A stretch of DNA of 64,000 nucleotides from Pelobacter propionicus DSM 2379. Its GTDB lineage: Bacteria > Desulfobacterota > Desulfuromonadia > Geobacterales > Pseudopelobacteraceae. Where the stretch lies: NCBI RefSeq assembly GCF_000015045.1, contig NC_008609.1, positions 744,001 through 808,000 on the forward strand, read 5' to 3'. Positions within the stretch are counted from its first letter, which is position 1. Each line of letters begins with the position of its first letter. Of this stretch, positions 2,002 to 39,769 are shown piece by piece. The notes below the pieces were generated by a model. The model ran no database searches and was not told where the DNA came from. It was given only the letters and a program-made list of their open reading frames with translations. The translations under genes and the position numbers were made by a program.

Positions 2002-3183
2002 TCAGGTGCGATAATCCGCGTTGATGCTGACATAATCGTGGGAAAGATCAGACGTGTAGACCGTGGCGCTGCCGTTGCCCAGGCCCAGGTCAACGCTGAC
2101 GGTGAACTCTCGCTTCCTGAGTACCTCGGTGCCGCGCTGCTCGGCATCCCCGCCAGCGAAGATGCCGTTGCGTGCCATGAGGACGCCATCGAAGCTGAGT
2201 GAGAGCAGCGACTGATCCACCTCGGCGCCGGAGTAGCCGACAGCCGCAAAGATGCGTCCCCAGTTGGCATCCTGGCCGTAGAATGCGGTTTTTACCAGGC
2301 AGGAATTGGCAATGGCCCGGGCCGCCAGTCTGGCGTCGTCGTCGCCGCGGGCACCGCTGACGCGCACCTCCACGAACTTGGTGGCGCCCTCGCCGTCCCT
2401 GGCGATCTGCTTCGCCAGGGAGAGGAGCACGTCGTTGAGAAGTGCCTCGAAGGCGTCTCCCTCCGCTGTTCCCTCCCTGATGAGGTCGTTGTCCGCCATG
2501 CCGTTGGCCATGAGCAGACAGGTGTCGTTGGTGGACATGTCGCCGTCAACGGTGATGGCGTTGAAGGATTGGGCCACCGCTTTCCGGAAGGCCCTTTCCT
2601 GGAAGGCCGGTTCTACGGCTGCATCGCTGATGATATAGGACAGCATGGTGGCCATGTTGGGCATGATCATACCGGAACCCTTGGCAATACCGGCCACCGT
2701 GTAGCTTGTGCCACGGACCTCTGCTTCGCGGGCCTCCATCTTGGGGAAGGTGTCGGTGGTCATGATTGCCTGGGCAACGTCATCCAGCGTGCCGCTAGAG
2801 AGCCCTTCGATGAGGGGAGGGATCGCGTCCCGGATGCGTTTCATCGGCATGGGTACCCCGATGACGCCGGTGGACGAGACCTGGACCGCCTGGTCGGAGA
2901 TGCCCAGGCCCTGGGCGACCAGGTTGGCTGTCTCGCGAGCCACGATCATTCCCGCATCACCGGTGCAGGCATTGGCGTTGCCGCTGTTGACAACCACCGC
3001 CTGGGCGCTGCCGCCTTTGATATGCTCCATGGAGAGCAGCACCGGCGCGGCCTTGACGGCATTGACGGTGAAAACGGCGCAGGCGCTGGCGGGAACTTCG
3101 GAGAAGATCAGGGCCAGATCCTTGCGCCCCGGCTTTTTGATGGCGGCTTCAACGGCCGAGAAGCGGAAACCTTTGATATCCAT
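2002..3183 (-). CDS. argJ: Bifunctional glutamate N-acetyltransferase / amino-acid acetyltransferase ArgJ
   Basis: ArgJ moves the acetyl group from N-acetylornithine to glutamate, recycling it in arginine synthesis; bifunctional forms also use acetyl-CoA. About 393 residues from the ATG at 3183 (MDIKGFRFSAVEA), which matches the family N-terminus and has GGGA nine bases upstream; an in-frame ATG at 3198 would add five residues but lacks a ribosome site. Visible marks are the STGVIGVPMP oxyanion-hole loop and the KGSGMIMPNMATML motif, where self-cleavage between Ala and the nucleophilic Thr (Thr179 from this start) makes the alpha and beta chains. Length is normal. No other arg gene is adjacent, so the pathway genes are dispersed. 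Mono- versus bifunctional status cannot be read from sequence alone. Confidence 0.95.
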   Translation of the reverse strand: MDIKGFRFSAVEAAIKKPGRKDLALIFSEVPASACAVFTVNAVKAAPVLLSMEHIKGGSAQAVVVNSGNANACTGDAGMIVARETANLVAQGLGISDQAVQVSSTGVIGVPMPMKRIRDAIPPLIEGLSSGTLDDVAQAIMTTDTFPKMEAREAEVRGTSYTVAGIAKGSGMIMPNMATMLSYIISDAAVEPAFQERAFRKAVAQSFNAITVDGDMSTNDTCLLMANGMADNDLIREGTAEGDAFEALLNDVLLSLAKQIARDGEGATKFVEVRVSGARGDDDARLAARAIANSCLVKTAFYGQDANWGRIFAAVGYSGAEVDQSLLSLSFDGVLMARNGIFAGGDAEQRGTEVLRKREFTVSVDLGLGNGSATVYTSDLSHDYVSINADYRT

Positions 3184-3554
3184 GGATGCACATCCCATAT
3201 GTGTATTCTAAAACCGGCGGAGCTGAGTCAAACGCTCGCCTGAGCAGAACATTACTCCAAAACTTCGGCCGGTAGCAAGCCTATTTGACGCTGCGCTGCG
3301 TCTATCCGGCGTCTTCGCCCTCTTCCTGGCTCTCTCCCTGACGTGGTATTCACGTTTCATGCGCATGCATTTTCCCCCTGGATTGTTACAATAGGGCAGT
3401 CGTTCCGCTTGCATGGTCGCACCGGTGGCATCCTGCGGAGAGGTCCGGAAGAATATAATTGCTTTTGCTTTATAAATGTCAAATTATGGCATGCACATGG
3501 AAGTGTTTTGCATGCTGTTTTGAAGAGGCTTTTTCTGGTTATGCGGAGATTCTG
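3184..3554. other. Intergenic region between argJ and a hybrid kinase
   Basis: About 370 bases between divergent genes, so it must hold two promoters, none of which I can place with confidence. The only regular structure I see is a pair of GCATGC palindromes at 3489-3494 and 3510-3515, 21 bases apart centre to centre, 40-65 bases before the kinase start codon. Short open frames here lack ribosome sites and are not called. Confidence 0.5.
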
Positions 3555-6227
3555 ATGAAGATACCATCCCGATATAACGGGCTCCTGGAGAGAATTCGCA
3601 TCGTCGCCATCTACGCCCTGTTCGGTTCCCTCTGGATCTACCTCTCCGATACGGTTGTGGGATGGCTGATACATGATCCCCTCGTCATCACCCGCCTCTC
3701 CGTTTACAAGGGGATTCTGTTCATCGCTCTCACCTCAGGCCTGCTCTACTTCCTGATCGCGCGCTATCTCTCGCGCATGGCGGAGTACAACCGGGAACTG
3801 GTGAAGAGCGAAGAGCGCTTCGTCTCCATCTTCAACAACATGTCGGACGCGATCTTCATTCATGACGCAGGTAGCGGCGCCATTGTGGATGCCAATGAAT
3901 CGGTGTTCAGGATGTTCGGCTATGATCGCGACGAAATGGTCCGGCTTCAGGTCGGTGACATCAGCCAGGGGGAGGCGCCCTATTCCCAGACCGACGCGTT
4001 GCAATGGCTCCGCCGTGCCGCCGATGACGCGTCGCCGCTCACATTCGAGTGGCGCTGCAGGAGAAAGGACGGGAGCCTGTTCTGGGTAGAGTGCACCATG
4101 CGCAAGGCGCTGATCGGGGGGGGGGAGTTCATCATCGTTGCGGTGCGCGACATCAGCGAACGGAGAGATGTTGCCGAAGCGTTGCGGCGATCGGAGTACA
4201 CCAACACAACTTTCAACAGGATATCCAGAATCTTTCTCACCAGCCTCGATGACGAGGATATGTTCGATTCCGTGCTCAAGGTTGTCCTTGACGTCATGGC
4301 CAGCCCCTACGGTATTTTCGGTTACATTGACGAAAACGGTTCCATGGTCTGTCCCTCGATGACCAAGGAGATCTGGAGCGAGTGTCAGATGAACCACAAG
4401 AGCACTGTCTTTCCCGAATTATCCTGGGGTGACAGCATCTGGGGTGCAAGCCTGAGGGACGGCGAGTCGCGCCGCGTGAACCAACCGTTCACGGTACCGG
4501 AGGGGCATGTCCCCATCCAGCGCTGTCTCTGTGTGCCGCTGGTGTACCAGGGGAACGCCATTGGCCTGTTTATCGTGGCCAACAAATCCACCGACTATAC
4601 CGACGAGGAGCTGCGGGCGCTGCAATCCATAGCCGAACATGCCGCGCCGGTGCTCTACGCCAGGCTCCAGCAGCAGAAGGCAACCAGGGCCTTGGTGGAG
4701 AGCGAAAACCGGCTGCGGGTGATCTTTGAAGCCAGCCCGGCCGGGATCATCATGACATCCCCCTCCGGCGCGATCAGCTTTGCCAACCAGCGTATGGCCG
4801 AGCTGTTCGGCTACTCCCTGGGGGAACTGGTTGGAACCTCCTACCTATCCCACGTACACTCTGAGCAGTGCGAGGCCGCAGAGCATGAGATTCAGCGTCT
4901 TGTCAGCGGAGGGATCGGTTCCACCAACACCGAGCGGCACTACATCCGTGCGGATGGGAGCGATTTCTGGGGACATGTCAGCAGTCGCCGCTATGAGGAT
5001 ACGGATGGTGTTCTGGTTTCCATCGTAGCGATCGTTGCCGATATGACCGAACTGAAACAGGCCGAGGAACAGCGCCGCAAGCTGGAGCAGCAGATGCTCC
5101 ACGTGCAGAAGCTGGAGAGCCTTGGGGTTCTGGCGGGCGGCATCGCCCATGATTTCAATAATATACTGCTGGCCATAACCGGGAATGCCAGCCTGGCCTT
5201 GATGCGTCTCAGCCCGGACTCTCCGGCGGTGCATCACCTGCGGCAGATCGAGAAAGCGGCCGACAAGGCGGCCGACCTGGCCCGCCAGATGCTGGCGTAC
5301 TCGGGCAAGGGGCGTTTTGTCGTCGAGGCCCTGAACCTGAACCAGGTGGTGGAGGAGATGACCAGCATGCTGCACGTCTCCATCTCCAAGCGGGCCACCC
5401 TCCGCTATCACCTGGCCCCGGAGCTGCCCGCCATCGAGGCCGATGCGACCCAGATCCGGCAGGTTGTCATGAATCTGGCCATCAATGCCTCCGAGGCCAT
5501 CGGCGACAGGGATGGCGTCATCTCCATAGCCACCGGCAGCATGGAATGCGACCAGAGGTACCTGCGCGAGACCTGGCTGGACCAGAGTCTGAGCGAGGGA
5601 TTCTACGTCTATCTGGAAGTGGCGGATACCGGCTGCGGCATGAGCCGTGAGACCATGGAGCGGATTTTCGACCCCTTTTTTACCACCAAGTTTACCGGCC
5701 GCGGCCTGGGCATGGCCGCCATCCTCGGTATTGTCCGCGGCCACCACGGGGCTATCAAGATCTACAGCGAGCCGGGCAGGGGGAGCTCCTTCAAGATCCT
5801 GCTCCCGGCCAGCCAGCGCCCCGTGGAGCGACTCCACGAACCGCTTGCCCCTGCCCATTGGCGGGGAGATGGCCTTGTGCTGCTGGTGGACGACGAGGAG
5901 ATCATTCGCACCATCGGCACGGACATGCTCACGGAACTGGGATTTGATGTTGTGACCGCCCAGGATGGCCGCGAGGCGGTGGAACTGTTTCGCCGAGACC
6001 CGGGCGGGATCACCTTTGTCGTACTGGACCTGACCATGCCGCACATGAGCGGTGAGGAGACCTTTCGCGAGATGCGCCGCATCGATCCGGCGGTCAAGGT
6101 GATCATGTCCAGCGGCTATAACGAATATGAGGTCACCCAGAAGTTCGTGGGCAAGGGGTTGGCCGGTTTCATTCAGAAACCGTACTCGCTGTCCATCCTG
6201 ACGGACGTGATCCGCAACATCCTCTGA
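3555..6227 (+). CDS. Membrane-bound hybrid sensor histidine kinase (PAS-GAF-PAS-HisKA-HATPase-REC)
   Basis: 890 residues from ATG 3555, chosen because GGAG lies six bases upstream; longer in-frame starts have no ribosome site. Order: two N-terminal membrane helices (about 16-40 and 55-74) with almost no periplasmic loop, PAS with PAC (about 90-215), GAF (about 220-375), second PAS (about 385-505), HisKA with phosphoacceptor H532 in GGIAHDFNN, HATPase_c with N, G1 (DTGCGM) and G2 (GRGLGM) boxes, and a C-terminal receiver with phosphoacceptor D825 in VLDLTMP. With so little outside the membrane, sensing is probably cytoplasmic through the PAS and GAF domains. The GNAT-ATPase fusion starts 65 bases downstream on the same strand and may be co-transcribed. 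No DNA-binding response regulator is adjacent, so the output is unknown. Confidence 0.93.
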   Translation: MKIPSRYNGLLERIRIVAIYALFGSLWIYLSDTVVGWLIHDPLVITRLSVYKGILFIALTSGLLYFLIARYLSRMAEYNRELVKSEERFVSIFNNMSDAIFIHDAGSGAIVDANESVFRMFGYDRDEMVRLQVGDISQGEAPYSQTDALQWLRRAADDASPLTFEWRCRRKDGSLFWVECTMRKALIGGGEFIIVAVRDISERRDVAEALRRSEYTNTTFNRISRIFLTSLDDEDMFDSVLKVVLDVMASPYGIFGYIDENGSMVCPSMTKEIWSECQMNHKSTVFPELSWGDSIWGASLRDGESRRVNQPFTVPEGHVPIQRCLCVPLVYQGNAIGLFIVANKSTDYTDEELRALQSIAEHAAPVLYARLQQQKATRALVESENRLRVIFEASPAGIIMTSPSGAISFANQRMAELFGYSLGELVGTSYLSHVHSEQCEAAEHEIQRLVSGGIGSTNTERHYIRADGSDFWGHVSSRRYEDTDGVLVSIVAIVADMTELKQAEEQRRKLEQQMLHVQKLESLGVLAGGIAHDFNNILLAITGNASLALMRLSPDSPAVHHLRQIEKAADKAADLARQMLAYSGKGRFVVEALNLNQVVEEMTSMLHVSISKRATLRYHLAPELPAIEADATQIRQVVMNLAINASEAIGDRDGVISIATGSMECDQRYLRETWLDQSLSEGFYVYLEVADTGCGMSRETMERIFDPFFTTKFTGRGLGMAAILGIVRGHHGAIKIYSEPGRGSSFKILLPASQRPVERLHEPLAPAHWRGDGLVLLVDDEEIIRTIGTDMLTELGFDVVTAQDGREAVELFRRDPGGITFVVLDLTMPHMSGEETFREMRRIDPAVKVIMSSGYNEYEVTQKFVGKGLAGFIQKPYSLSILTDVIRNIL

Positions 6228-6292
6228 AATCACGGAAGAGCGAGCAGGCAGTCGGACGCAGCCGATCCGGCGACAGGGGGCAAAGGCAGACT

Positions 6293-8269
6293 ATGCGGTG
6301 GCAGAACAGCAATTTTCCCTACATCAGGAGCTTGAACCAGGAGTATGAGAAGGCGATACGTCAGAGCACGCTCCTGAATATCGACTCCCTGGTGATCCCC
6401 TCCCCCTATATCCTGGACAGGACCATCGATATCGACTACGAACACAGCCTGGTCTGGGATGAGGAGGGGGAACTGCTTGGCTACCTGCTGGTCTACGCCA
6501 CCCCCGACAGCAGGAAGCTCCATATCTACGAACAGGTGACCAGCCCTTTCGGCAGGGGAAAGGGGATCGGTTCGGCCTTCCTGGAATACCTGGCCAACAG
6601 TGTTGACGAAGATGCCCGCATCTACCTGTTCGTCTGGGAGAAACTGATCAGCTCCATCGAGTTCTTCCAGAGCAAGGGGCTGGTGATCGAGGAACTGATA
6701 GTCTACCGCAAGATGCGTTTCCACCGCATGTCCGCCACTGCCGGGACGATCCGGGAAGCCATCGCGCTGACCAAGAACAAGGACTACTCCGTCGTGGAGG
6801 AACTGGGCAAGGTGCGCCATGACGCCAAGAAGTCCCTGAAGGTGCTCTTCGACATGGCCTCCATGCTCTCGGTGGACAACTTCAACAAGGTCACCGAGGA
6901 CATAAACCGGGAAACCACCGCGCTGGTGAACACCCTCAATACCTATGAGGACAAGATCAGGGTTTCCCACAAGGTTTCCATCAAGGAGCTGATCATCGAG
7001 CGGGTGATTCCCTTTGTCGAGGCGGCCAGTTTTCCCTGCCAGATTCGCCTGAACCTGGAATCCAGAATCTCCGCCGTCATGGGCAATTACATGAATTACA
7101 GCCGTGCCCTGATCAACCTCGTTTCCAACTCCCTGGACGCCATCAGGGTCTCCGGCAGGCGGGGGATCATCGAGTTCACCCTGCGGGAACAGGACGACGC
7201 GGTGCTCCTGATCATCCAGGATAACGGGGTCGGCATCGAGCGGGAAAAACTGAAAAAGGGGAGCGACATGCTCCCGCTGTTCGTGGGGAAAACCACCAAG
7301 CAGGGGACGGTGGGCGAGGGGCTCGGCACACGGCAGATCTTTTCCACCTTCGGTCCCGACAGCATCCATGTGGAGAGCAAGGTGCAGGAGTTCACCCGCT
7401 GGACCATCGCCCTGAAAAAGAACAACCAGAAGGATGCTGCGCTTTTGACCAGCCTGGGGTCGCGTTACGTCAGGTTCATCAAAACCACCCAGAGTATCGG
7501 TGTTACCCGGGAGAGCGGCAGGCCGGAGATTTCCCGCTTCATCTGGCAGCTCAGGCAGATGGAGCTGTTCAGCTACAAGCTGCTGTACCAGTTCAGCAGG
7601 TACAACAATGTGCGCGACATTTTCCAGAACATCCTGCTGTACCGCTACGGGGGGAGGAGTTTCGAGCAGTTCAAGGCCGAGCTGCGTCAATGCCGCATCG
7701 ATGACGAGGTAATCAGATCCTGGCTGATGGGGATGATGAGGCGTATTAGCCGGAACGAGACCTGGATCATGCAGAACCTCTCCTTTGACGAGTACAAGGA
7801 CGAACTGCTGCAGAGCTACGGCCAGGCCATCGACCGCACCATGATCTTTACCATGGATCCGGATAACGGGAGGTTTTTTGCCACCGACCGGCGTTTTGCC
7901 GAGCATCTTGATTTCGTTCCCTACCTTGGCCGCGGCCGCGATCAGCTGCTGAGGGGAGAGTTCAGTGGCGACTTCAAGAACCTCACCAGTCCGGTGGTCA
8001 TGGGAGTCTGGAGCGTGAAGGACCTGCGCGACCTGCATGACAAGTTGAGGCTGATCCGGAAGGGGGTGGCGCGGTTGCGGGAGATGGGACTTTCCGGGGA
8101 GAAGCGGCTCTCGTTCTATACCACCACCTACAACTCCATTGGCCGCGACGTTGACATCTTCAGGACCCTCTCCCTCCATGACATGCTGACCATGGAGGAT
8201 GGGGCGCTGGACTGTTTGACCAGGGAGGTCGACAACGAGATGAACGAGATGGTCTTCGCGGCCGGGTAG
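6293..8269 (+). CDS. GNAT acetyltransferase-like domain fused to a histidine-kinase-type ATPase and an unassigned C-terminal domain
   Basis: 658 residues; ATG 6293 has AAAGG about seven bases upstream. Residues ~50-150 read as a GNAT fold, with the acetyl-CoA loop GRGKGIG at 87-93. Residues ~165-375 read as a dimerisation helix plus GHKL ATPase: H176 in VRHDAKK as an H-box candidate, an N box at N275-LVSN-SLDAI, a G1 box DNGVGIE at 310-316, an F-box-like PLFVGKTTK at 328-336 and a G2 box GEGLGT at 341-346. Residues ~380-658 are rich in charged and aromatic residues, have no membrane segment, and match no family I know. It follows the hybrid kinase closely and is followed by a hairpin at 8305-8328. 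Whether it phosphorylates, acetylates, or only binds nucleotide and CoA is unknown. Domain calls are by motif only. Confidence 0.75.
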   Translation: MRWQNSNFPYIRSLNQEYEKAIRQSTLLNIDSLVIPSPYILDRTIDIDYEHSLVWDEEGELLGYLLVYATPDSRKLHIYEQVTSPFGRGKGIGSAFLEYLANSVDEDARIYLFVWEKLISSIEFFQSKGLVIEELIVYRKMRFHRMSATAGTIREAIALTKNKDYSVVEELGKVRHDAKKSLKVLFDMASMLSVDNFNKVTEDINRETTALVNTLNTYEDKIRVSHKVSIKELIIERVIPFVEAASFPCQIRLNLESRISAVMGNYMNYSRALINLVSNSLDAIRVSGRRGIIEFTLREQDDAVLLIIQDNGVGIEREKLKKGSDMLPLFVGKTTKQGTVGEGLGTRQIFSTFGPDSIHVESKVQEFTRWTIALKKNNQKDAALLTSLGSRYVRFIKTTQSIGVTRESGRPEISRFIWQLRQMELFSYKLLYQFSRYNNVRDIFQNILLYRYGGRSFEQFKAELRQCRIDDEVIRSWLMGMMRRISRNETWIMQNLSFDEYKDELLQSYGQAIDRTMIFTMDPDNGRFFATDRRFAEHLDFVPYLGRGRDQLLRGEFSGDFKNLTSPVVMGVWSVKDLRDLHDKLRLIRKGVARLREMGLSGEKRLSFYTTTYNSIGRDVDIFRTLSLHDMLTMEDGALDCLTREVDNEMNEMVFAAG

Positions 8270-8328: not shown

Positions 8329-8359
8329 TAAACTATTTTCGGTACGAGAGGAGACCACC

Positions 8360-8581
8360 ATGTACGGTGCGGACAGGATTTACAAGAAAGTCGAGATTAT
8401 CGGCGTTTCCAAGATCAGTATCGAGGCCGCCATTGAAACGGCCGTGACCAAGGCGCGTGCCTCCTTGGACAAACTCTCATGGTTCGAGGTGCAGGATATC
8501 AGGGGCCATATCGGTGATGATGGCAAGGTCTCCGAATACCAGGTGGTGCTCAAGGTCGCCTTTCAGTTGAAGGGAGAATGA
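8360..8581 (+). CDS. Dodecin, flavin-binding protein
   Basis: 73 residues from ATG 8360 with a GAGAGGAG ribosome site. Dodecins are small dodecameric cytoplasmic proteins that sequester FMN, riboflavin or related flavins between paired tryptophans and protect the cell from free flavin. The start YKKVEIIGVS, the flavin-stacking tryptophan W41 in LSWFEV, the following QDIRGHI strand and the closing YQVVLKVAFQL strand are typical, as is the length. A coiled-coil gene starts 38 bases after its stop and may share the transcript. Two flavodoxin-fold reductases lie within 11 kb, but nothing ties them to it directly. Confidence 0.93.
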   Translation: MYGADRIYKKVEIIGVSKISIEAAIETAVTKARASLDKLSWFEVQDIRGHIGDDGKVSEYQVVLKVAFQLKGE

Positions 8582-8619
8582 CGGGAAGCGATCCCCCGCA
8601 AGCGGGGAAGGAGAAAACG

Positions 8620-8907
8620 ATGGACAGGAAAGAAGCATATCGGGAAAAGCTGGATGCCCAACTCAAGGAGCTGAAGGCGAAGATTGATCAGCTGGAGAAC
8701 CGGGTCTCCTCGCTTTCCGCCGATGCAAAGGCCGAGCTGGTCAAGGATATCCACGATCTGCGCAAAAGGAAGATGATCGTGAGGGAAAAGTGGAATGAAC
8801 TGCAGAAAGCAGGCGGGGAGGCATGGGATGCCATGAGGGAGGGGGTGGAAAAGGCCACCGCCGAACTGAAGGAGTCCCTGGAGAAGGTCATCTCACGCTT
8901 CAAGTAG
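8620..8907 (+). CDS. Small charged coiled-coil protein (sll1863-like stress protein family, tentative)
   Basis: 95 residues from ATG 8620, selected because AAGGAG lies six bases upstream; an upstream in-frame ATG at 8578 overlaps the dodecin stop and has no such site. The protein is almost wholly helical and charged, with heptad-like spacing, no cysteine, no signal peptide and no membrane segment: KLDAQLKELKAKIDQLE, then a second helix ending in ESLEKVISRFK. It resembles short coiled-coil proteins annotated as a stress-response family, but that is recall of general pattern, not a search result. It probably shares a transcript with dodecin. Confidence 0.7.
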   Translation: MDRKEAYREKLDAQLKELKAKIDQLENRVSSLSADAKAELVKDIHDLRKRKMIVREKWNELQKAGGEAWDAMREGVEKATAELKESLEKVISRFK

Positions 8908-11417: not shown

Positions 11418-14400
11418 TCAGGCGGTTTGCCCGCCCATCTCCCGCGCCAGAAGCCACTCAGGCACTTGCTCCGGCGTGAGTGGCCTTGCGACAAAGTACC
11501 CCTGGATCCCGTCGCAACCGGCGGCGCGCAGGGCACGGTACTCATCCTCCTTCTCCACCCCCTCCGCGATGACCTGCATGTCAAGGGTATGGCCAAGGCC
11601 GATGATGGCCTTGATGATGGCCAGGTCGGCCGGTCGCTCCAGCATTCCCCGTATGAATGACCTGTCTATTTTCAGGCAGTCGATGGGGAAACGGTGCAGG
11701 TAGTTCAGGCTCGAGTAGCCGGTACCGAAATCATCGATGGAGAACAGAAAACCCTCATCCTTGAGTGTTTCCATGACCCGTATGGTCCGCACCGCATCCT
11801 CCATCAGCATGGTTTCGGTCAGTTCTAGCTCGATCCGATGGGGGGATACCCCCTCCTCCCTGACCAGTTGCACCAGATCTTCGACAAAGCGCCTGTCACG
11901 GAACTGGACAGCTGAAACGTTAAGGGAGAGGCAGATGTGGGACATCCCGACCGAACTCCAGCGGGAAAGCTGGCGACAGGCGTTGCGGATGACCTGCTTT
12001 CCGATGGGGATGATCAGTCCCGTTTCCTCGGCTATGGGAATGAACTCCATGGGAGAAATCATGCCGTGATCCGGGTGCTGCCAGCGCAGAAGGGCCTCCA
12101 GGCCGTATGGTTTGCCGGTGTGGAGATCCAGTTTTGGCTGGTAGTGGAGCAGAAGCTCGTTCCGCTCGATCCCCTTTCTCAGGCTGGTCTCGATGCTGAG
12201 ACGCTGCATGGCCCGCGAGTTCAGCTCTTCCGTGTAAAAATGGTAGTTGTTCCTCCCGACCTCCTTTGCCCTGTACATGGCAGTGTCGGCATTGCGCAGC
12301 AGGGTGTCCTTGTCCAAACCGTCCTCCGGGAAGATGCTGATGCCGATGCTGCAGGAACAGTGCAGCTCATATCCCCCCGCGTCGTAGGGCTGGCGCATCA
12401 GCGGCAGAAGCCGGTGTTTCATGATCTCCTCGATCTGATGGGAATCCTCGATGTCGGCCAGAATGATGACGAACTCGTCCCCTCCCAGGCGGCTGACCGT
12501 GTCCCCGTCACGCACACCCATGGAGAGACGGTTGGCCGCCGTGACCAGGACGCAGTCACCCACATGGTGGCCGAGTGAATCGTTGATGTTCTTGAAATGG
12601 TCCAGGTCGATGAAGATCACCGCCACATGCCGTCCGTTGCGATGCGCCTGCTGCAGGGCCAGTATCAGCCGCTCCATGCAGAGCAGGCGATTGGGGAGGT
12701 TGGTGAGGGCATCGTGATGGGCGATGTGCTGGATGCGCTGTTCCTGGGACTTCTGGGCGCTGATATCGGTGAACAGGGCGATGTAGTTGGTTACCGTTCC
12801 CTGCCGGTCATGGACGGTGTTGACCACCATCCACTGGGGTGAAACCTCGCCGTTTTTATGCCGACACCAGAATTCCCCCTGCCATGAGCCGCGCTTTCTG
12901 ATCCCCCGCCAGAGCTGGCGGAAATAGATGCCGTCATGCACGTCCGACCTGAGCGCCAGGGAGGACTGCCCGATGATCTCTTCCGCCCGGTATCCCGTGG
13001 TGGCGCAGAATGCCTGGTTGACGGAGACGATGCGCTGCGCGGCGTCCGTGATCATGATGCTTTCCGAGGTGCACTCGAAGACACGCCCCCACAGCTCCAG
13101 TGTTGCCTCGGCCCTCCGTCGTGCACTGATATCGATCCCCACGGTTATGAGACAATCCTCGCCTCCCAGCAGGAAGAGCCGTGAGGTCAGGAGGTAGATC
13201 TCCCGGGATGAGCTCCCCTGGAGTGATACCTCTGCTTCGGCTGCGCCCCGCCGAAATCCTCCCTGGACCATGGAACGAATCTTCTCCCTCTGGTCCGGCG
13301 GAAAATGGAGTTCGATGGAAGAGAAGGGGGAGCCGGGAGAGGTGGTCTCCCGAAAACGGTCGAAATTCCGGTTGGTGCTGAGAATCCTGAAATCGCTGCC
13401 CAGCATGAAAAAAATGCCGGGCAGGCTATCCAGAGCCGCCTGGGAGAATGCCTTCTCGTTACGCACCCCCTCTTCCAGGTGCTTGCGGAGGTTGATGGGG
13501 GTGAAGAGCGTCAGGAGCGCCTGTTCACCCTGGTAGCTCACCGGGCGTACCGAAACCTGGGACCAAAAGCAGGGAGCGCCGGGCAGCCGCAGGAGCAGCT
13601 CGTATTCATCGATGTTTTTTTCCTCAACCAGGAGCGAGAGAAAGGTTTCACGCTGGTTCTCTCCCGCTATGACGTCAAAGGGGGACCACGACTCCAGGCC
13701 AGCGGCTGTCTGATCCGGCATGAACAGCTCCAGTGCCGGCCCGTTGGCGTGGCGGAGGCTGTGGCCGCTCAGGGAGGTTACCGTGAGCGGCAGGGGGATC
13801 GACTCGAACAGGGCCCTCTGGGCATCGGAGGCGCGGGCAGCTGCCACGAGTTCCTGCTGGGTGATGCGGTCGTTGTTGAGCCGCTCCAGCATGGAGTTGA
13901 AGCAGCTGACCAGTTCGCCGATCTCGTCATTTCCCTCCTTCTTCGCACGCAGGCTGTAGTCGTTTGTCATCTGCACCGCCCCGGCGACGGTGGCAAGCTC
14001 ACGAATAGGGGCGACGATTCTGCGGGCAATGTAGAAAACGGACAGCAGGATCAGCCCCAGCAGCAGACATGCGGTACCCAGGTGCAGCCACATGCGCCTG
14101 AAATACGAGTCGATGCGGTTGTTCAGCAGCAGGTCGAGTTCCTGGGAGCTCTCTTTCCAGCAGGCATGCACGCTGAGCAGGGCATCCCGGTGCGCCTGTC
14201 GTATACGGAAACGGGTGGTTGCTGTCTCTACGCTTTTTGTCCCATATGGCTGGGCGGCAATACGCTGCAGCGAGGAGATCAGCCGGGCATGGCTCTGACC
14301 GAGGCGTTCCTTCAGCCTTCCCGAGGGATCGTTGCGGAATGCGGCGTTGAAATCGGAATCAATGGCCTTTTGTGCCGCTGCCAGCTTTCCCTCCATCACC

Positions 14401-15035
14401 AGGAGTCCGAGCCGGGAGTGCTTATTCCTTGCTCCCGCTGATGCCATGGATTCCTGGGTACGTTCTCCATGGTCCAGCAGCAGTGAAACCATCTCAGGAA
14501 AACGCAGAAGGACCAGGGACATGGTGTAATAGCTGTCCAGATCCGGATCAAGGATCAGGTTTGATTGGTCGCCGATTCTCGCGATCAGTTGCATGGCAGC
14601 GGTGATGGCTTCGGCGTGGAGAGCCCTGGGCTCTCCGGATGCATTGATCTCGTCTTCTGTGATGATCGTGCGGATAGCATGAACCAGTTCGTGCTGGAAC
14701 TGTCCGGTGTGCAGCCCCCTGCCGTAGCGCTCTTCTGCTTCGACAAGGGCTCCCGTCACGCGCTTCAACTCGTCCTGGCGCGCAGCGACCGGCTGCCGGT
14801 GCTCTTCTCTCCTTGCGTCGGCGCTCTCGATTAAAGCGAATACGCTTTCCCTGGCAGCAGCGATGTAGTGGTTGCCGGCGATTTCCTTGCGCGAAAAGTC
14901 TATGGCCAAGTACTTCTCATGGATGAGAATGGTTGTGATGAAGATTACCGCCGAGAGATCCAGGAGGTAGATCAGCAGAAGTTTCTTTGCGACACTGAGG
15001 TTGCTGATGAACCCCGTGATTCGTGATGGCATCAT
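11418..15035 (-). CDS. Membrane-bound PAS-GGDEF-EAL cyclic-di-GMP protein
   Basis: 1205 residues from ATG 15035, which has GGGGAG nine bases upstream; longer frames lack a ribosome site. Order: N-terminal membrane helix (about 20-40), a ~280-residue helical periplasmic sensor region, second membrane helix (about 300-325), HAMP (about 325-378), three PAS-type modules (about 395-490, 520-630, 635-755), GGDEF (about 760-930) with intact RLGGDEF, and EAL (about 940-1195) with intact LEALLRW and DDFGTGYSSL. Both catalytic sites look competent, so it could make and break c-di-GMP; net direction cannot be told. A chemoreceptor is read divergently, starting about 320 bases away. Probable role: coupling an external signal to attachment or motility. 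Confidence 0.93.
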   Translation of the reverse strand: MMPSRITGFISNLSVAKKLLLIYLLDLSAVIFITTILIHEKYLAIDFSRKEIAGNHYIAAARESVFALIESADARREEHRQPVAARQDELKRVTGALVEAEERYGRGLHTGQFQHELVHAIRTIITEDEINASGEPRALHAEAITAAMQLIARIGDQSNLILDPDLDSYYTMSLVLLRFPEMVSLLLDHGERTQESMASAGARNKHSRLGLLVMEGKLAAAQKAIDSDFNAAFRNDPSGRLKERLGQSHARLISSLQRIAAQPYGTKSVETATTRFRIRQAHRDALLSVHACWKESSQELDLLLNNRIDSYFRRMWLHLGTACLLLGLILLSVFYIARRIVAPIRELATVAGAVQMTNDYSLRAKKEGNDEIGELVSCFNSMLERLNNDRITQQELVAAARASDAQRALFESIPLPLTVTSLSGHSLRHANGPALELFMPDQTAAGLESWSPFDVIAGENQRETFLSLLVEEKNIDEYELLLRLPGAPCFWSQVSVRPVSYQGEQALLTLFTPINLRKHLEEGVRNEKAFSQAALDSLPGIFFMLGSDFRILSTNRNFDRFRETTSPGSPFSSIELHFPPDQREKIRSMVQGGFRRGAAEAEVSLQGSSSREIYLLTSRLFLLGGEDCLITVGIDISARRRAEATLELWGRVFECTSESIMITDAAQRIVSVNQAFCATTGYRAEEIIGQSSLALRSDVHDGIYFRQLWRGIRKRGSWQGEFWCRHKNGEVSPQWMVVNTVHDRQGTVTNYIALFTDISAQKSQEQRIQHIAHHDALTNLPNRLLCMERLILALQQAHRNGRHVAVIFIDLDHFKNINDSLGHHVGDCVLVTAANRLSMGVRDGDTVSRLGGDEFVIILADIEDSHQIEEIMKHRLLPLMRQPYDAGGYELHCSCSIGISIFPEDGLDKDTLLRNADTAMYRAKEVGRNNYHFYTEELNSRAMQRLSIETSLRKGIERNELLLHYQPKLDLHTGKPYGLEALLRWQHPDHGMISPMEFIPIAEETGLIIPIGKQVIRNACRQLSRWSSVGMSHICLSLNVSAVQFRDRRFVEDLVQLVREEGVSPHRIELELTETMLMEDAVRTIRVMETLKDEGFLFSIDDFGTGYSSLNYLHRFPIDCLKIDRSFIRGMLERPADLAIIKAIIGLGHTLDMQVIAEGVEKEDEYRALRAAGCDGIQGYFVARPLTPEQVPEWLLAREMGGQTA

Positions 15036-15358
15036 CTCGATCGGCTCCCCTTTGATGACCTGTTCGTGGATAACGTCGAATTTTAATGAAAGCATGAAGG
15101 GTGCCAAGGGTGGATAACGCCCCGATTCCGGCATGGCCGTGCCGGGCTCCGGCAGCAGGGGACACGCAAGTGCCCTGAAATCTGTCATGGATGTCTGTTT
15201 TGTCGGCAGCCCACTGGTCCTGCGGTACTCCGGGCGTAGTGCTGCCTCGCAGGAAACTCATCCATGACTCTTCTTTTCCCTCGTCAGGCCGGAAAAACTC
15301 TCGGGATATGATACGATTCAATCACCATACTGCAAGCTTATCTCGTCGGAGGTGGATA

Positions 15359-16978
15359 ATGAGCAAATTTAGCATCGGAACCCGTCTGCTGGCAGGATTT
15401 TCGTTTGTTCTGATACTTCTGGCCGTTATCATCGCCACAGGGGTCAACAGCCTTAACAAGAGCGAGGATCAGCTGAAGAATGTCAAACGTATCAGCGGCC
15501 TGAGCAACAAGGTAGTGGTTGCGACCATCGCCGACAAAGATATTCAGGAGTTGGTGAAGGGGCTGATAATGGTTGACCTGAGCGCTGAGAGGGGGCGGGT
15601 CGTCGCCAGCATACGCGAACTGGAGCAGAAGTGCGCGGAAGCGGTGGATGTGCTGGACAAAAACACCAAAACACCGGATGGCAAGAAGCTTGTGGCCGAG
15701 GTGAAGGCAGCCCGTGAGGAAGTTGCCAGAGTGGATGAAAAACTCATCACCCTGGCGATCAGTGGTGACAGTGCCGGGTTTAAGGCGATGATGAATGTTG
15801 AAGGAGAAAAGGCGATTGCCAGGTCATCATCGGCGCTTGACGCTCTGCTGTCGTTCTACGACAAACGTGTGGGAGTTCGCGTAGATGATGCGATCGACAA
15901 TGCCGCCTACGCAACCCGACTGATGTTTGGTCTGGGCATCGCAGCCATCCTCCTGGGAATTCTGGCAGCCGTTTTCATCACGCGCAGCATTACGGTGCCA
16001 TTGCACACCTGTGTGGAGATGGCCGACAAGATTGCCGATGGTGACATGTCCATTTCCATGAGAGTCGAAGACGGCAAATGCGAAACGGTGCATCTCATCA
16101 AGGCCATAGCAAATATGGCAGAGAGAATTCGCGATGCCATCGGCCGTGTTTCCCTGGCTGCCGGCGAGGTCTCCGCCGCTGTTACGGAACTGCATGAAAA
16201 TTCGCAACGCATGGTACGGGGGACTGATGAGGTTTCCTCCCAGGCTTCCATGGTTGCCACTGCCGGTGAGGAAATGGCAGCCACATCTCTGGATATCGCC
16301 AACAACTGCAACTCCGCAGCCGAGAGCTCGCGCCATGCCAATCAGCTTGCTACCAGCGGAGCTTCCATTGTCCAGGGGACCGTTGACGGGATGGCCCGCA
16401 TCGCCGAGCGGGTCCGTGCCACGGCGCGCAGTGTCGAGAATCTCGGCTCACGCTCGGACGAGATCGGCGCCATTGTTGGCACCATCGAGGATATCGCGGA
16501 TCAGACCAATCTGTTGGCACTCAACGCGGCAATCGAGGCGGCCCGCGCCGGAGAACAGGGGCGGGGATTCGCGGTGGTCGCCGACGAGGTTCGCGCCCTC
16601 GCCGAACGTACGACCCGTGCGACCAAGGAGATCGGCGGTATGATCAAAGCTATCCAGACCGAGACGCACCAAGCGGTTCTTTCTATGGATGAGGGCGTCA
16701 ACGAGGTGGAGAGAGGTACGCAAGAAGCGTCCAAGTCCGGCAGTGCACTGGAGGAGATTCTTGCGCAGATCAACGAGGTTACCAACCAGATCAACCAGAT
16801 TGCCACCGCTGCGGAAGAACAGAGCTCAACCAGTCGCGACATCAGCAACAACATGCATATGATCACCGGAATTGTCAATGAAACCGCACAGGGAACCCAG
16901 GCAACCGCCAAGGCCGCAGACCAGTTGACGGCTCTTGCCAATGACCTGAAGGTGCTTGTTGCCCAGTTCAGGCTGTAG
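15359..16978 (+). CDS. Methyl-accepting chemotaxis protein
   Basis: 539 residues from ATG 15359 with GGAGGTG six bases upstream. A first membrane helix (about 10-32), a ~160-residue periplasmic four-helix-bundle ligand domain, a second helix (about 185-210), HAMP (about 210-265) and the cytoplasmic signalling coiled coil. The conserved hairpin tip that contacts CheA and CheW is intact: [20 protein letters not shown], then [21 protein letters not shown]. There is no obvious C-terminal CheR-binding pentapeptide; the chain ends in LVAQFRL. No che genes are adjacent, so it works with a chemotaxis or similar array encoded elsewhere. The ligand is unknown. Confidence 0.95.
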
Positions 16979-34240: not shown

Positions 34241-34384
34241 ACTGTATAGTAATCAGATTTGATATGCACCATTCCCGTTGTTTGTAGGTAAATGGCTGTT
34301 TCCCCCATTATTTGTCATGTAGTTTCCGTCCCCCCCTTCATACAGAGACTTGAATAATGGAATGTGATTGTCACGAGGGCGTTA

Positions 34385-36481
34385 ATGTCACGGTTTCCTT
34401 CTGTCATGAGCAAGCGCATCCTGATCCTGGTCATTCTGGTGACGGTTGTCTTTGTGGGGAAAGTCCTCTTCGACATCACCTCTGACTACGGGCAGGTCAT
34501 CCTTTCCGCGGAACGCCTGTCTCGCGGATTCGCCACCGCGCTCAACGAGCATGCCGTATACACGTTCAGCAACGCGGAAAACACCCTGGACGACCTCATC
34601 CAACATCTTCAGGAGCGCTCGTCCCGCGCCATGCCCGATGAACGCCAGTTGCATCGCCTCCTCGTCAACTACCGGCTGAAGAGCCCCAACAGCCCCTTCC
34701 TCTTCGCGACCACCGCTGGCGGCCGCCTCCACGCTTCTTCATCCGATTTTCCGGTCCGCGGCCTCAACCTCGTCAACCGCGAGTATTTCCAGCACCACCT
34801 GAACAGCCGGGATACTGCCCCGTATATCAGTCGATCTCCCAACAGCCTGATAGACGGCGACTGGCTCATTTTCCTGACCAAGCGGATCTCCAATCCGGAC
34901 GGCTCGCTGCGCATGATTGTGGGTATATCCATCGACCCGCTCCATTTGAATGATTTCTACCGCTCCATCGAACTGGGCACCCATGACCGGATTTTCCTGT
35001 TCCGCAAGGACGGTGCCGTCCTGACCCTGGAACCGTTCTATAAGGCGTTCATGGATAAGATCATTCCACCAACGGATACGATCAGGAGAGAGCTTGCCAA
35101 GCGTCCCCATGCCGGCACCATCCATATGGAACAGGGGCTTGTGGATGAAACCAGCAGGATCGTGTCCTATCGCTTCTCGAACCGTTATCCGGTGGTCTCC
35201 GTCGTTTCGCTGCGGGAGGATGATGTGCTGGCGCGCTGGAGAGCGCGTTCCGCCAAGAGTGCCGCCGGGGCGCTGCTGCTGGTCGTGCTGGTGGGGACGC
35301 TGGGACTGCTGGTCTATCGTCAGGTCAAGGCGCTGAAGCAGAGTGAAGACAAGTACAGCCTGATCTCCACCACCGCCAACGAGGGGATCTGGATGCTGGA
35401 TGCAGACGACCGCATCATCTATGTCAATCCCCGCGTGGGGGAGATGTTCGGCTATCCCGGCGAGGAGATGGTTGGGCATCCGATAAGCTCGTTCATGTGT
35501 CCGGACCAGCTTGCCGACCATGAAGTTCGGATGAGGTTCCGCAAAGAGGGGGGCTCCGAACGCTATGAGCGCCGCTTCCAGCACAGAGATGGCAGGGATG
35601 TCTGGACAATCATCTCAGCCGCGGCACTCATCGACGACGAGGATGGTTATCAGGGGGTCGTGGCCATGTGCCTCGACATCACTGACCGCAAAATGAGCGA
35701 GGAACGCCAGACCCGGCTGGAAGAACAGTTGCGCCAGGCCCATAAGATGGAGGCGGTGGGCATTCTGGCAGGTGGCATGGCCCACGATTTCAATAACCTG
35801 CTCCAGTCCATCATGGGATACATCTTCCTGGCCAGGATGAGCGTGGAAGCCGACAGCGAGGCACGGGAATATCTGGACGAGGCGGAGAAGATCTCCGGCC
35901 AGGCCAGCGAGCTGGGACAGCGGCTCCTGCTCCTTTCCCGCGGAGGAGTCGCCCTGTTGCGCGCCGCCCCCCTGGCGCCACTGATCCTGCCGCTGGTTTC
36001 CTCCGAGCTGGAGGGGACTGCCATCACCGGCGAGTTCGATCTGCCGGATGACATGCCGCACGTCACCATGGATGAGGCGCTGATGAAGCAGGTCATATCG
36101 CACCTGACGGTCAATGCCGTCGAAACCATGCCCGAGGGGGGCACGCTGCGCATCACCGGCGCAACGTTGACCATCACGGCAAAAAACGGGCTACCGCTTC
36201 CCGCCGGCCGCTACGTTCATATCGCCTTCAGCGATACGGGGGGCGGGATTCCCGCCGACAATCTGCCCAGGATTTTCGATCCCTACTTCACCACCAAGGA
36301 GATGTGGAACCGCAAGGGCATGGGGCTCGGTCTGGCCCTCTGCCATACGATCATACGCAAGCACAAAGGAATGATCAGCGCCACGTCGCCTGTGGGGGAA
36401 GGGGCCACGTTCAATATCTACCTTCCGGTCGCAGGCGAGGATGCCCCGACTCCATTCTCCGCACCCCCTCAGTTCTTCTGA
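34385..36481 (+). CDS. Membrane-bound sensor histidine kinase with periplasmic Cache-like sensor
   Basis: 698 residues from ATG 34385, five bases after GAGGG. A membrane helix (about 8-30), a periplasmic region of ~250 residues with the dCache look (FLFATTAGGRLHASS, LVNREYFQHHL, ISRSPNSLIDGDWLIFLTKRI), a second helix (about 295-318), one PAS domain (about 325-445), HisKA with H467 in GGMAHDFNNLL, and HATPase_c with DTGGGIP, FDPYFTTK and MGLGLALCH. No receiver domain is attached. It is the first of three genes placed between tRNA-Gln and prs. Its cognate regulator is not in the window; the radical-SAM gene starts 22 bases after its stop. Confidence 0.92.
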   Translation: MSRFPSVMSKRILILVILVTVVFVGKVLFDITSDYGQVILSAERLSRGFATALNEHAVYTFSNAENTLDDLIQHLQERSSRAMPDERQLHRLLVNYRLKSPNSPFLFATTAGGRLHASSSDFPVRGLNLVNREYFQHHLNSRDTAPYISRSPNSLIDGDWLIFLTKRISNPDGSLRMIVGISIDPLHLNDFYRSIELGTHDRIFLFRKDGAVLTLEPFYKAFMDKIIPPTDTIRRELAKRPHAGTIHMEQGLVDETSRIVSYRFSNRYPVVSVVSLREDDVLARWRARSAKSAAGALLLVVLVGTLGLLVYRQVKALKQSEDKYSLISTTANEGIWMLDADDRIIYVNPRVGEMFGYPGEEMVGHPISSFMCPDQLADHEVRMRFRKEGGSERYERRFQHRDGRDVWTIISAAALIDDEDGYQGVVAMCLDITDRKMSEERQTRLEEQLRQAHKMEAVGILAGGMAHDFNNLLQSIMGYIFLARMSVEADSEAREYLDEAEKISGQASELGQRLLLLSRGGVALLRAAPLAPLILPLVSSELEGTAITGEFDLPDDMPHVTMDEALMKQVISHLTVNAVETMPEGGTLRITGATLTITAKNGLPLPAGRYVHIAFSDTGGGIPADNLPRIFDPYFTTKEMWNRKGMGLGLALCHTIIRKHKGMISATSPVGEGATFNIYLPVAGEDAPTPFSAPPQFF

Positions 36482-38485: not shown

Positions 38486-39769
38486 ATGCGAACAATCCAC
38501 GGAAACCTGAGCCTCATGTCGGTCATGGATATCATCCAGTGGGCCGACAACAGCAAGCGCAGCGGCACCCTGATTCTGTTTCAGGACGATCACCAGAAAA
38601 AAATCTACTTTCAGGATGGCCAGATAATCTTTGTCTGGTCGGACTGCCAGGGTGAGCGTATCGCGGATTTTTTGCAGTTCGAAACGCTCATCAGCCAACA
38701 GAAGCTGCACGAAGTGCTGTCCGACTCGGAGATGCTCGGTCTTCCCTTTATTGGTTACCTCTACTCGGAGGGGATCGTCTCCTTGTCGCGACTGGAGGAA
38801 ATTCTCAGGCTGGTGGCCCAAGCGGCGCTGATCAACGCACTGAGCTGGGAAACCGGACTGTTCGAATTCATCGACGAGTTGCCCGGTTTCGTGCTCAACG
38901 GCCCGGTCAGGCTCAGTTCGACCCAGCTCCTGCTTGAGTCGCTTCAAAAGTTCGACGAAACCCATCAGAATAGCCGTGTGGACAGCGATCGTATCGTGGT
39001 GGAAATCGTCCGCAACATCGAGCACGGCAACCTGGATCTTCCTCCCATTCCCGATATCATGCAGCGCATCGTGTCGAAGATGGACAGCCCCAACGTCTCC
39101 ATTGACGAGATCGTTGAATGCATTACCGACCAGATACTTGCCGCCAAGATCCTCAAGATCTGCAACTCTCCCTTCTATCGGAGAAGCGGAAAGGTGACGA
39201 CCCTGAAGGATGCTGTGCTGTTCATCGGGTTCAAATCGCTGATCAGCATCGTCACGGTCCACTCATTAAGCAGTTTCAGCCCCAGAAACACCGTTGAAAT
39301 CAGGAAAGTCCTGCAGCACTGTCTGGTGTGCGGCATGATCGCCCGCCAGATAGCCCAGGACATGCGCGGAGATTACGAGCGGGCCTTTATCTGCGGCCTG
39401 CTGCACGATATCGGCAAAACCGTTATGCTGGACATGCTCTCCGATTACCTGCTGGAGGACGATGTGCGCCAGAAGCTGATAGATGGTCACCACGCGGAGA
39501 TCGGCTATCTTTTGGCCCGCAAATGGAATTTCGACGAGGCGATTCAGGAGAGTATCCGCTTCCACCACGAGCCGGAGCGGGCCGTCATGCATCGGGGGCT
39601 GGTGGAGATGGTCTACCTCTCCAACATCATGACCTACAGCAGTCAGGCCGGCGACACGCCCGGCGTCAGTTTTGCCGGCATCGACCTGAAGCAAATTAAT
39701 GTGGCTGAGCTCATGGAGCGGGTGGATGGACTCGACGAGGTGGCTGGGGATATTATCAATAGCGACTGA
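38486..39769 (+). CDS. DUF4388 - HDOD signalling protein
   Basis: 427 residues. Residues 1-~110 match the DUF4388 module (start GNLSLMSVMDIIQWADNSKRS, KIYFQDGQIIF), and ~180-400 the HDOD domain, with LPPIPDIMQRIV, then AKILKICNSPFY and an HD pair kept in GLLHDIGK. HDOD proteins bind or sense signals without proven phosphohydrolase action and often tune c-di-GMP or chemotaxis circuits. The combination is common in delta-proteobacteria. The ribosome site before ATG 38486 is weak (GGATAAACG). It closes the three-gene insert before prs. Confidence 0.9.
   Translation: MRTIHGNLSLMSVMDIIQWADNSKRSGTLILFQDDHQKKIYFQDGQIIFVWSDCQGERIADFLQFETLISQQKLHEVLSDSEMLGLPFIGYLYSEGIVSLSRLEEILRLVAQAALINALSWETGLFEFIDELPGFVLNGPVRLSSTQLLLESLQKFDETHQNSRVDSDRIVVEIVRNIEHGNLDLPPIPDIMQRIVSKMDSPNVSIDEIVECITDQILAAKILKICNSPFYRRSGKVTTLKDAVLFIGFKSLISIVTVHSLSSFSPRNTVEIRKVLQHCLVCGMIARQIAQDMRGDYERAFICGLLHDIGKTVMLDMLSDYLLEDDVRQKLIDGHHAEIGYLLARKWNFDEAIQESIRFHHEPERAVMHRGLVEMVYLSNIMTYSSQAGDTPGVSFAGIDLKQINVAELMERVDGLDEVAGDIINSD

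Follow-up and report, generated by a model that had tools for sequence, protein, structure and literature searches.

Gene structure and coding evidence

The window analyzed, i.e., the 64,000-nucleotide stretch of Pelobacter propionicus DSM 2379 covering positions 744,001 to 808,000 of contig NC_008609.1, bears at 6293..8269 on the forward strand a complete coding sequence for a protein of 658 aa, in which a GNAT-like head, a DHp-like hairpin, a GHKL ATPase domain and a new C-terminal domain follow one another. The extent and length of this reading frame as well as the positions of the GRGKGIG loop (residues 87-93) and of H176 agree with a preliminary description of the locus. The start Met is found at the same or nearly the same position in the homologues, and a putative ribosome-binding sequence, AGGGGGcAAAGG (6275..6286, forward strand), can be read from the sequence 6-12 bases 5' of the ATG.

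Full-length homologues sharing 53-77% identity are widespread in the Desulfuromonadia, the class to which P. propionicus belongs as a fermenting member, and occur in about 50 species. Comparison with the nearest relative results in a dN of 0.136 and a dS of 1.27 for the whole gene, corresponding to a dN/dS of about 0.11, while values of 0.17 and 1.33, respectively, are obtained for the tail alone, and this low dN relative to dS indicates purifying selection on the tail as well. The frame at 6293-8269 is a single genuine gene subject to such selection and, considering both the substitution pattern and the full-length homologues, the domain content of its product is far beyond chance. On the reverse strand, an antisense ORF of 649 residues (6230-8179) mirrors the kinase gene and is probably a composition artefact, as are other long mirrored ORFs of the window. 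In a 19-residue Kyte-Doolittle scan, the hydrophobicity of the 658-aa protein peaks at a mean of 1.2 and no stretch is hydrophobic enough for a transmembrane helix, which fits an intracellular ligand.

Distribution and co-occurrence of the three parts

Within the class, the tail profile matches in 51 of 277 Desulfuromonadia genomes and the GNAT-head profile in 50 of 271, the latter matches lying in frames of 590-752 residues save for one decayed remnant. When the tail profile was run against an even sample of the phylum (395 genomes), confident matches were obtained in only two genomes, both belonging to the class Desulfuromonadia; further weak matches across the phylum (best E 0.004 over 56 residues) were taken as chance. 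Apart from extra pieces resembling genes split at contig ends, the gene is present as one copy per genome. Of 49 loci checked, 44 are essentially full length; another four are truncated where their contigs end, and the remaining one (genome G265) is a TIR fusion. Profile searches of the class and inspection of these loci thus answer in the affirmative the question, raised in the preliminary description, of whether the three parts always occur together: head and tail are practically always encoded in one chain, the exceptions being the decayed remnant and the TIR fusion, and head, kinase and tail therefore are a near-obligate unit within the class Desulfuromonadia.

In the TIR fusion (L112:4348-5862), the C-terminal half of the family protein, from about residue 302 and hence with the ATP lid and the tail, is fused in frame to a TIR domain of some 145 residues; this may reflect disruption of the gene by a defence-type insertion or else an assembly artefact. 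The decayed remnant of genome G187 (L111, about 3021-3190) comprises only the N-terminal ~58 head residues, from which a short internal segment is deleted, followed by a stop, and is evidence of gene loss. The gene tree broadly matches taxonomy, requiring nine changes of family label versus a minimum of six, with a few probable transfers. A mobile or phage origin was rejected, as no match was found in plasmids, phages and IMG/VR. Beyond the phylum, the searches covered plasmids, phages and viral contigs as well as a scan of 84,980 species with single-sequence patterns able to detect close relatives only, and with this coverage relatives of the family elsewhere are possible.

The GNAT-like head

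The first 149 residues (6293..6739, forward strand) constitute the head, with a GNAT region extending from about residue 44 to 149. PF00583 (GNAT) matches residues 44-127 at an E value of 2.9e-8 and with 34.5 bits versus a curated cut-off of 20.7, and both GNAT and HATPase_c are matched in 44/44 aligned homologues (Pfam, E <= 0.001). The structural model of the head shows a GNAT-like order of helices and strands, at a pLDDT of mostly 51-88 over residues 51-149 and lower values over 21-50. The acyl-CoA loop GRGKGIG (residues 87-93; 6551..6571, forward strand), corresponding to motif A (R/QxxGxG), aligns with the RGxGxG of RimI; K90, G91, I92 and G93 are invariant in all 44 family members and R88 is present in 42 of them. 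With a Pfam score exceeding the curated cut-off and motif A present as R88-G-K-G-I-G93, the head possesses the features of the GNAT superfamily, in line with the initial assignment. Outside the family, the only matches to the head in the phylum sample are two weak ones (E 1.4e-6 and 6.5e-5), which are RimI-like by eye.

While the loop is kept, the catalytic residues are not. In an alignment of the 44 family members with seven RimI proteins from the same order, three catalytic positions of RimI, corresponding to residues 113, 118 and 125 (6629..6667, forward strand), are replaced: Glu103, Asn108 and Tyr115, each found in 7/7 RimI proteins, are exchanged for Tyr/Phe113 in all 44 family heads, Leu118 in 43 and Phe125 in 43, respectively. 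Hence, the active RimI-type set of a general base Glu, a loop Asn and a general acid Tyr is absent from the family heads, which have Y/F113, L118 and F125 instead. Glu103 is the general base of RimI, and Tyr acts as general acid in all E. coli protein acetyltransferases compared but YfiQ (PMC6199490), while the GNAT PA4794 loses its activity upon a Y128F exchange (PMC4964394). Due to the combination of a kept CoA loop with replaced RimI-type residues, the simplest reading of the sequence is that the head might be a pseudo-enzyme with retained coenzyme pocket, i.e., a sensor.

It is also conceivable that the head is an active acetyltransferase of an unusual kind, modifying a protein or a small molecule and being switched by the kinase module or by its own phosphorylation, as YfiQ is an example of an active GNAT without the canonical Tyr (PMC6199490) and GNATs differ in where the base is located. 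Such an enzyme could build a different active site from the conserved aromatic and polar residues Y68, Y79, Y111, W115 and K117, and both the intact CoA loop and the Pfam score well above cut-off would suit it. However, all three catalytic residues of the nearest enzyme type (Glu, Asn and Tyr) have been exchanged family-wide, with the Tyr being substituted in the same way that inactivates PA4794 (PMC4964394), and the domain order is opposite to that of the type III regulated enzymes, where the regulatory domain is N-terminal to the GNAT domain (PMC8556138), rendering catalysis by the head improbable. The family-wide loss of the three RimI residues from a head that has kept its CoA loop accordingly weakens the earlier suggestion that the protein acetylates a target, and its counterpart, acetyl-CoA sensing with signaling through H176, is preferred.

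The kinase core

Following a short linker (residues 150-166), which is the least conserved stretch of the protein, residues 162-377 align with the histidine kinase HK853 (4jas_A) at an E value of 3.4e-7 when the family profile is used. The first part of this region is a DHp-like helical hairpin (residues 160-225; 6770..6967, forward strand), supported by the profile alignment with HK853, whose helices 167-189 and 197-223 are predicted at low confidence (pLDDT about 30); in the full-length fold, which was computed from 10 sequences and reached a pLDDT of 64, the DHp part is poorly modeled, and no Pfam HisKA model matches it. Conservation across the whole protein peaks in these same helices. As DHp helices dock the response regulator, their conservation hints at one conserved partner and suggests that the same response regulator is used in all species.

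H176 (6818..6820, forward strand), embedded in VRHDAKKS, is the predicted phospho-acceptor. Its counterpart in the HK853 alignment is His260, and 44/44 members retain it along with R175, D177 and K180, substantiating the DHp-like H176 motif noticed initially. The Thr or Asn at position +4 after the phospho-acceptor His serves phosphatase activity in other histidine kinases. In the family, the usual phosphatase T/N (or Q) at +4/+5 is absent, with K180 occupying +4 in 44/44 members and S, A, G or T being present at +5, and this Lys in place of Thr/Asn makes it likely that the enzyme is biased toward kinase activity. A protein can be a histidine kinase even if it lacks this phosphatase residue.

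The GHKL/HATPase_c catalytic domain comprises residues 226-377 (6968..7423, forward strand), of which 270-375 are matched by PF02518 (HATPase_c) at an E value of 7.5e-9 and with 36.4 bits versus a curated cut-off of 26.4. The ATP-binding boxes (7127..7330, forward strand) include N279, D310-N-G-V-G314, PLFVG at 328-332 and GEGLGT at 341-346, and their key positions are invariant in 44/44 members: N275 and N279, DNGxG at 310-314, P328, F330, V331 and G332 of the F-box, and G341, G343, G345 and T346. The ATPase claimed in the preliminary description is thus borne out, whereas its motif set, there called near-complete, is in fact complete. By VIA-align, the model of this domain superimposes on ZraS (9jfj_A) with Z 17.9 and an rmsd of 2.9 over 143 residues and on HK853 (2c2a) with Z 17.4 and an rmsd of 2.5 over 139 residues. 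Best NCBIfam matches are AtoS (E 3e-13) and ZraS (E 2.7e-8), both far below the model cut-offs. Accordingly, the sequence and fold features of a histidine kinase are present, i.e., a GHKL fold including the N, G1, F and G2 boxes and a His in a predicted DHp helix preceding the ATPase domain, and the kinase core of the family is ordinary. Membership of the ATPase in a common family, named at the outset as a finding that would diminish novelty, applies to the catalytic domain, which is HPK4-like, but not to the H-box and the flanking domains, which are unusual.

Human PDK structures also align with the ATPase domain (Z about 16), and PDKs are known to respond to acetyl-CoA. The GHKL module might then be another type of ATPase or a PDK-type protein kinase acting on the tail or on a metabolic enzyme, with H176 staying unphosphorylated. 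The unusual H-box RHDxKK, with Lys at +4 where T or N is normal, would be compatible with such a role, as would the citrate synthase gene just upstream in 6/6 members of one genus. However, this neighbor is limited to that genus, bacterial histidine kinases rank above the PDKs in the structural comparison, and H176 is both invariant and profile-aligned with the HK853 phospho-acceptor; a PDK-like function is consequently thought to be hardly probable.

The C-terminal tail

In agreement with the preliminary description, which had left the tail from residue ~380 unassigned, this part of the window protein has no Pfam match. It consists of a helical subdomain with six helices (residues 378-512; 7424..7828, forward strand) and an alpha/beta subdomain (residues 513-645; 7829..8227, forward strand). 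Folded alone (residues 376-658; AlphaFold2, 49 sequences), the tail reaches a pLDDT of 90.5 and a pTM of 0.85, the model showing the six helices at 377-510 and then the alpha/beta domain. The tail profile has no sequence match in the PDB at E <= 10, and Foldseek revealed nothing significant among PDB structures (best E 0.1, Stay-Green 7y5y) or among viral models in BFVD (best E 0.018, probability 0.23). VIA-align gives Z values of 6.8 at most (helical bundles) and, for Stay-Green, Z 6.4 at an rmsd of 4.2 over 116 residues, both in the range which the tool calls common, while gelsolin and ADF-H are at Z 4-5. Scattered Pfam matches of single members (E 0.0017 or worse) were treated as chance. 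The protein thus adds a conserved domain of ~280 residues without clear structural relative.

Two conventional assignments were rejected. A REC domain, as in hybrid kinases, is at variance with the lack of a Response_reg match in any tail and with a model that does not show the REC-like alternation of strands and helices; an HPt domain is contradicted by the missing Pfam match and by a helical subdomain (378-512) devoid of invariant His, the sole invariant His of the tail being H538 inside the alpha/beta part.

Invariant residues of the helical subdomain are W418, R421, E424, N439, R441, D442, R451, R468 and W477, whereas the alpha/beta subdomain bears the invariant motifs FTxDP, EHxDF, RGExxGD, GxW and FYxxTxN; among its invariant residues are D522, R533, E537, H538, D540, R554, E556, D560, K604 and N614. 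As these are mostly charged or polar, their pattern suggests that the tail forms a ligand or active site and is not a plain spacer. The dense set of such residues would also be expected if the C-terminal domain were the real sensor of the kinase and the head, devoid of RimI-type catalytic residues, a mere structural or protein-binding module or the receptor of another ligand. In most histidine kinases, however, the sensor is placed N-terminal to the DHp domain, and a mere scaffold would not need the CoA loop K90-G-I-G93, invariant in 44/44 members, so that assigning the sensor role to the tail appears rather unlikely, albeit not far-fetched.

Gene neighborhood

Across 29 neighborhoods compared, neither a conserved neighbor gene nor a conserved adjacent response regulator was found. 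In the window, a hybrid histidine kinase of the architecture PAS-GAF-PAS-HisKA-HATPase-REC (3459..6227, forward strand; Pfam) is encoded 65 bp upstream of the gene and is a possible partner of the 6293-8269 kinase. The nearest relative has a shorter PAS-HATPase-REC kinase 56 bp upstream, and elsewhere such a kinase neighbor is not adjacent. In 6/6 members of one genus (L083, L086, L087, L088, L100, and L101), a citrate synthase gene is located directly upstream on the same strand, possibly a metabolic hint at the use of acetyl-CoA. In two distant genomes, an HDOD-histidine kinase followed by a REC-PAS-GGDEF-EAL protein is encoded upstream of the family gene (L040:2641-7031 and L075:5635-9979), these neighbors being 28-39% identical to each other. 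The upstream neighbors relate to phosphorelay and to acetyl-CoA metabolism; given their small number they do not constitute evidence, and gene neighborhood was dismissed as a guide to function, the partial patterns being too few to build on.

Downstream, a dodecin (8354-8581) is directly followed by a small coiled-coil protein (8578-8907), and this pair is kept together in the nearest relative (L033), where other genes separate it from the kinase. Farther away, a 1256-residue HAMP-PAS-GGDEF-EAL protein is encoded on the reverse strand (11418-15188), and additional signaling genes of this part of the window are located at 15191-16978, 34364-36481 and, with an HDOD domain, at 38486-39769.

Proposed mechanism

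The model that we favor, and to which we give about an even chance, is that of a cytosolic histidine kinase in which a pseudo-GNAT head serves as sensor of acyl-CoA or CoA and not as working acetyltransferase. It starts from the observed domain content, the intact ATP-binding and H-box residues, the kept CoA loop, the replaced RimI-type residues and the co-occurrence of the parts. The degenerate head would bind acetyl-CoA, another acyl-CoA or CoA as signal, and its occupancy would be relayed via the 150-166 linker into the DHp hairpin. There, the signal would gate the step in which the GHKL domain uses ATP to phosphorylate H176 and would set its rate, and the phosphoryl group would then presumably be passed to a response regulator whose gene is unlinked to that of the kinase. 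The C-terminal 280 residues may act as a dedicated regulatory or output domain, probably engaging a further ligand or a partner protein.

Acyl-CoA is a key indicator of carbon and energy status, particularly in the Desulfuromonadia with their fermenting and metal-reducing members, and to our knowledge no bacterial histidine kinase has been described as a direct reader of acetyl-CoA or another acyl-CoA. If the model is true, the cell reads its acyl-CoA level directly via a phosphorylation switch and the GNAT fold has been reused as a signal receptor. Moreover, CoA binding as well as H176 phosphorylation could then be measured in one tube with a soluble protein made of a single chain. The wider notion of a new class of cytosolic two-component sensors, in which a histidine kinase is driven by an acetyltransferase that has lost its activity and directly detects acyl-CoA, or the acyl-CoA/CoA ratio, with a C-terminal domain of new fold serving either as second sensor or as a novel type of output, is put forward tentatively and judged less probable than not.

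Comparison with known systems

The combination of head, kinase and tail as well as the fold of the tail match nothing in the libraries searched, and the N- and C-terminal domains correspond to no described histidine kinase in the sources consulted, which is consistent with the non-standard design postulated earlier. For the combinations of GNAT and histidine-kinase terms searched, the open-access library consulted yielded no matching paper but only loosely related ones, and the term 'histidine kinase' is absent from an extensive review on the acetyltransferases of bacteria and the domains that regulate them (PMC8556138).

Three known systems are nevertheless close in parts. Type III regulated protein acetyltransferases, in which a cAMP-, ACT- or NADP-binding domain is linked to GNAT, likewise combine GNAT and a regulatory module in one chain (PMC8556138). 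There, the regulatory domain precedes GNAT, whereas the order is reversed in the family, the other module is a histidine kinase and the GNAT domain itself appears to be the ligand-binding part. RimI-type GNATs share the fold order and the acyl-CoA loop RGxGxG with the family head but employ Glu103, Asn108 and Tyr115 in catalysis, where the head has Y/F, L and F, and they differ from the family in that its head is fused in front of a kinase. HPK4-like kinases (AtoS, ZraS, and KinB, with HK853 as structural reference) have in common with the family a GHKL domain with all ATP boxes and a helical hairpin with conserved His, aligning at Z 16.6-17.9 over about 140 residues. In contrast to these kinases, the family has no membrane, PAS or GAF sensor, bears RHDxKKS as H-box in place of HExRNP/T and PLFVG as F-box, and adds a GNAT-like head and a C-terminal domain of 280 residues.
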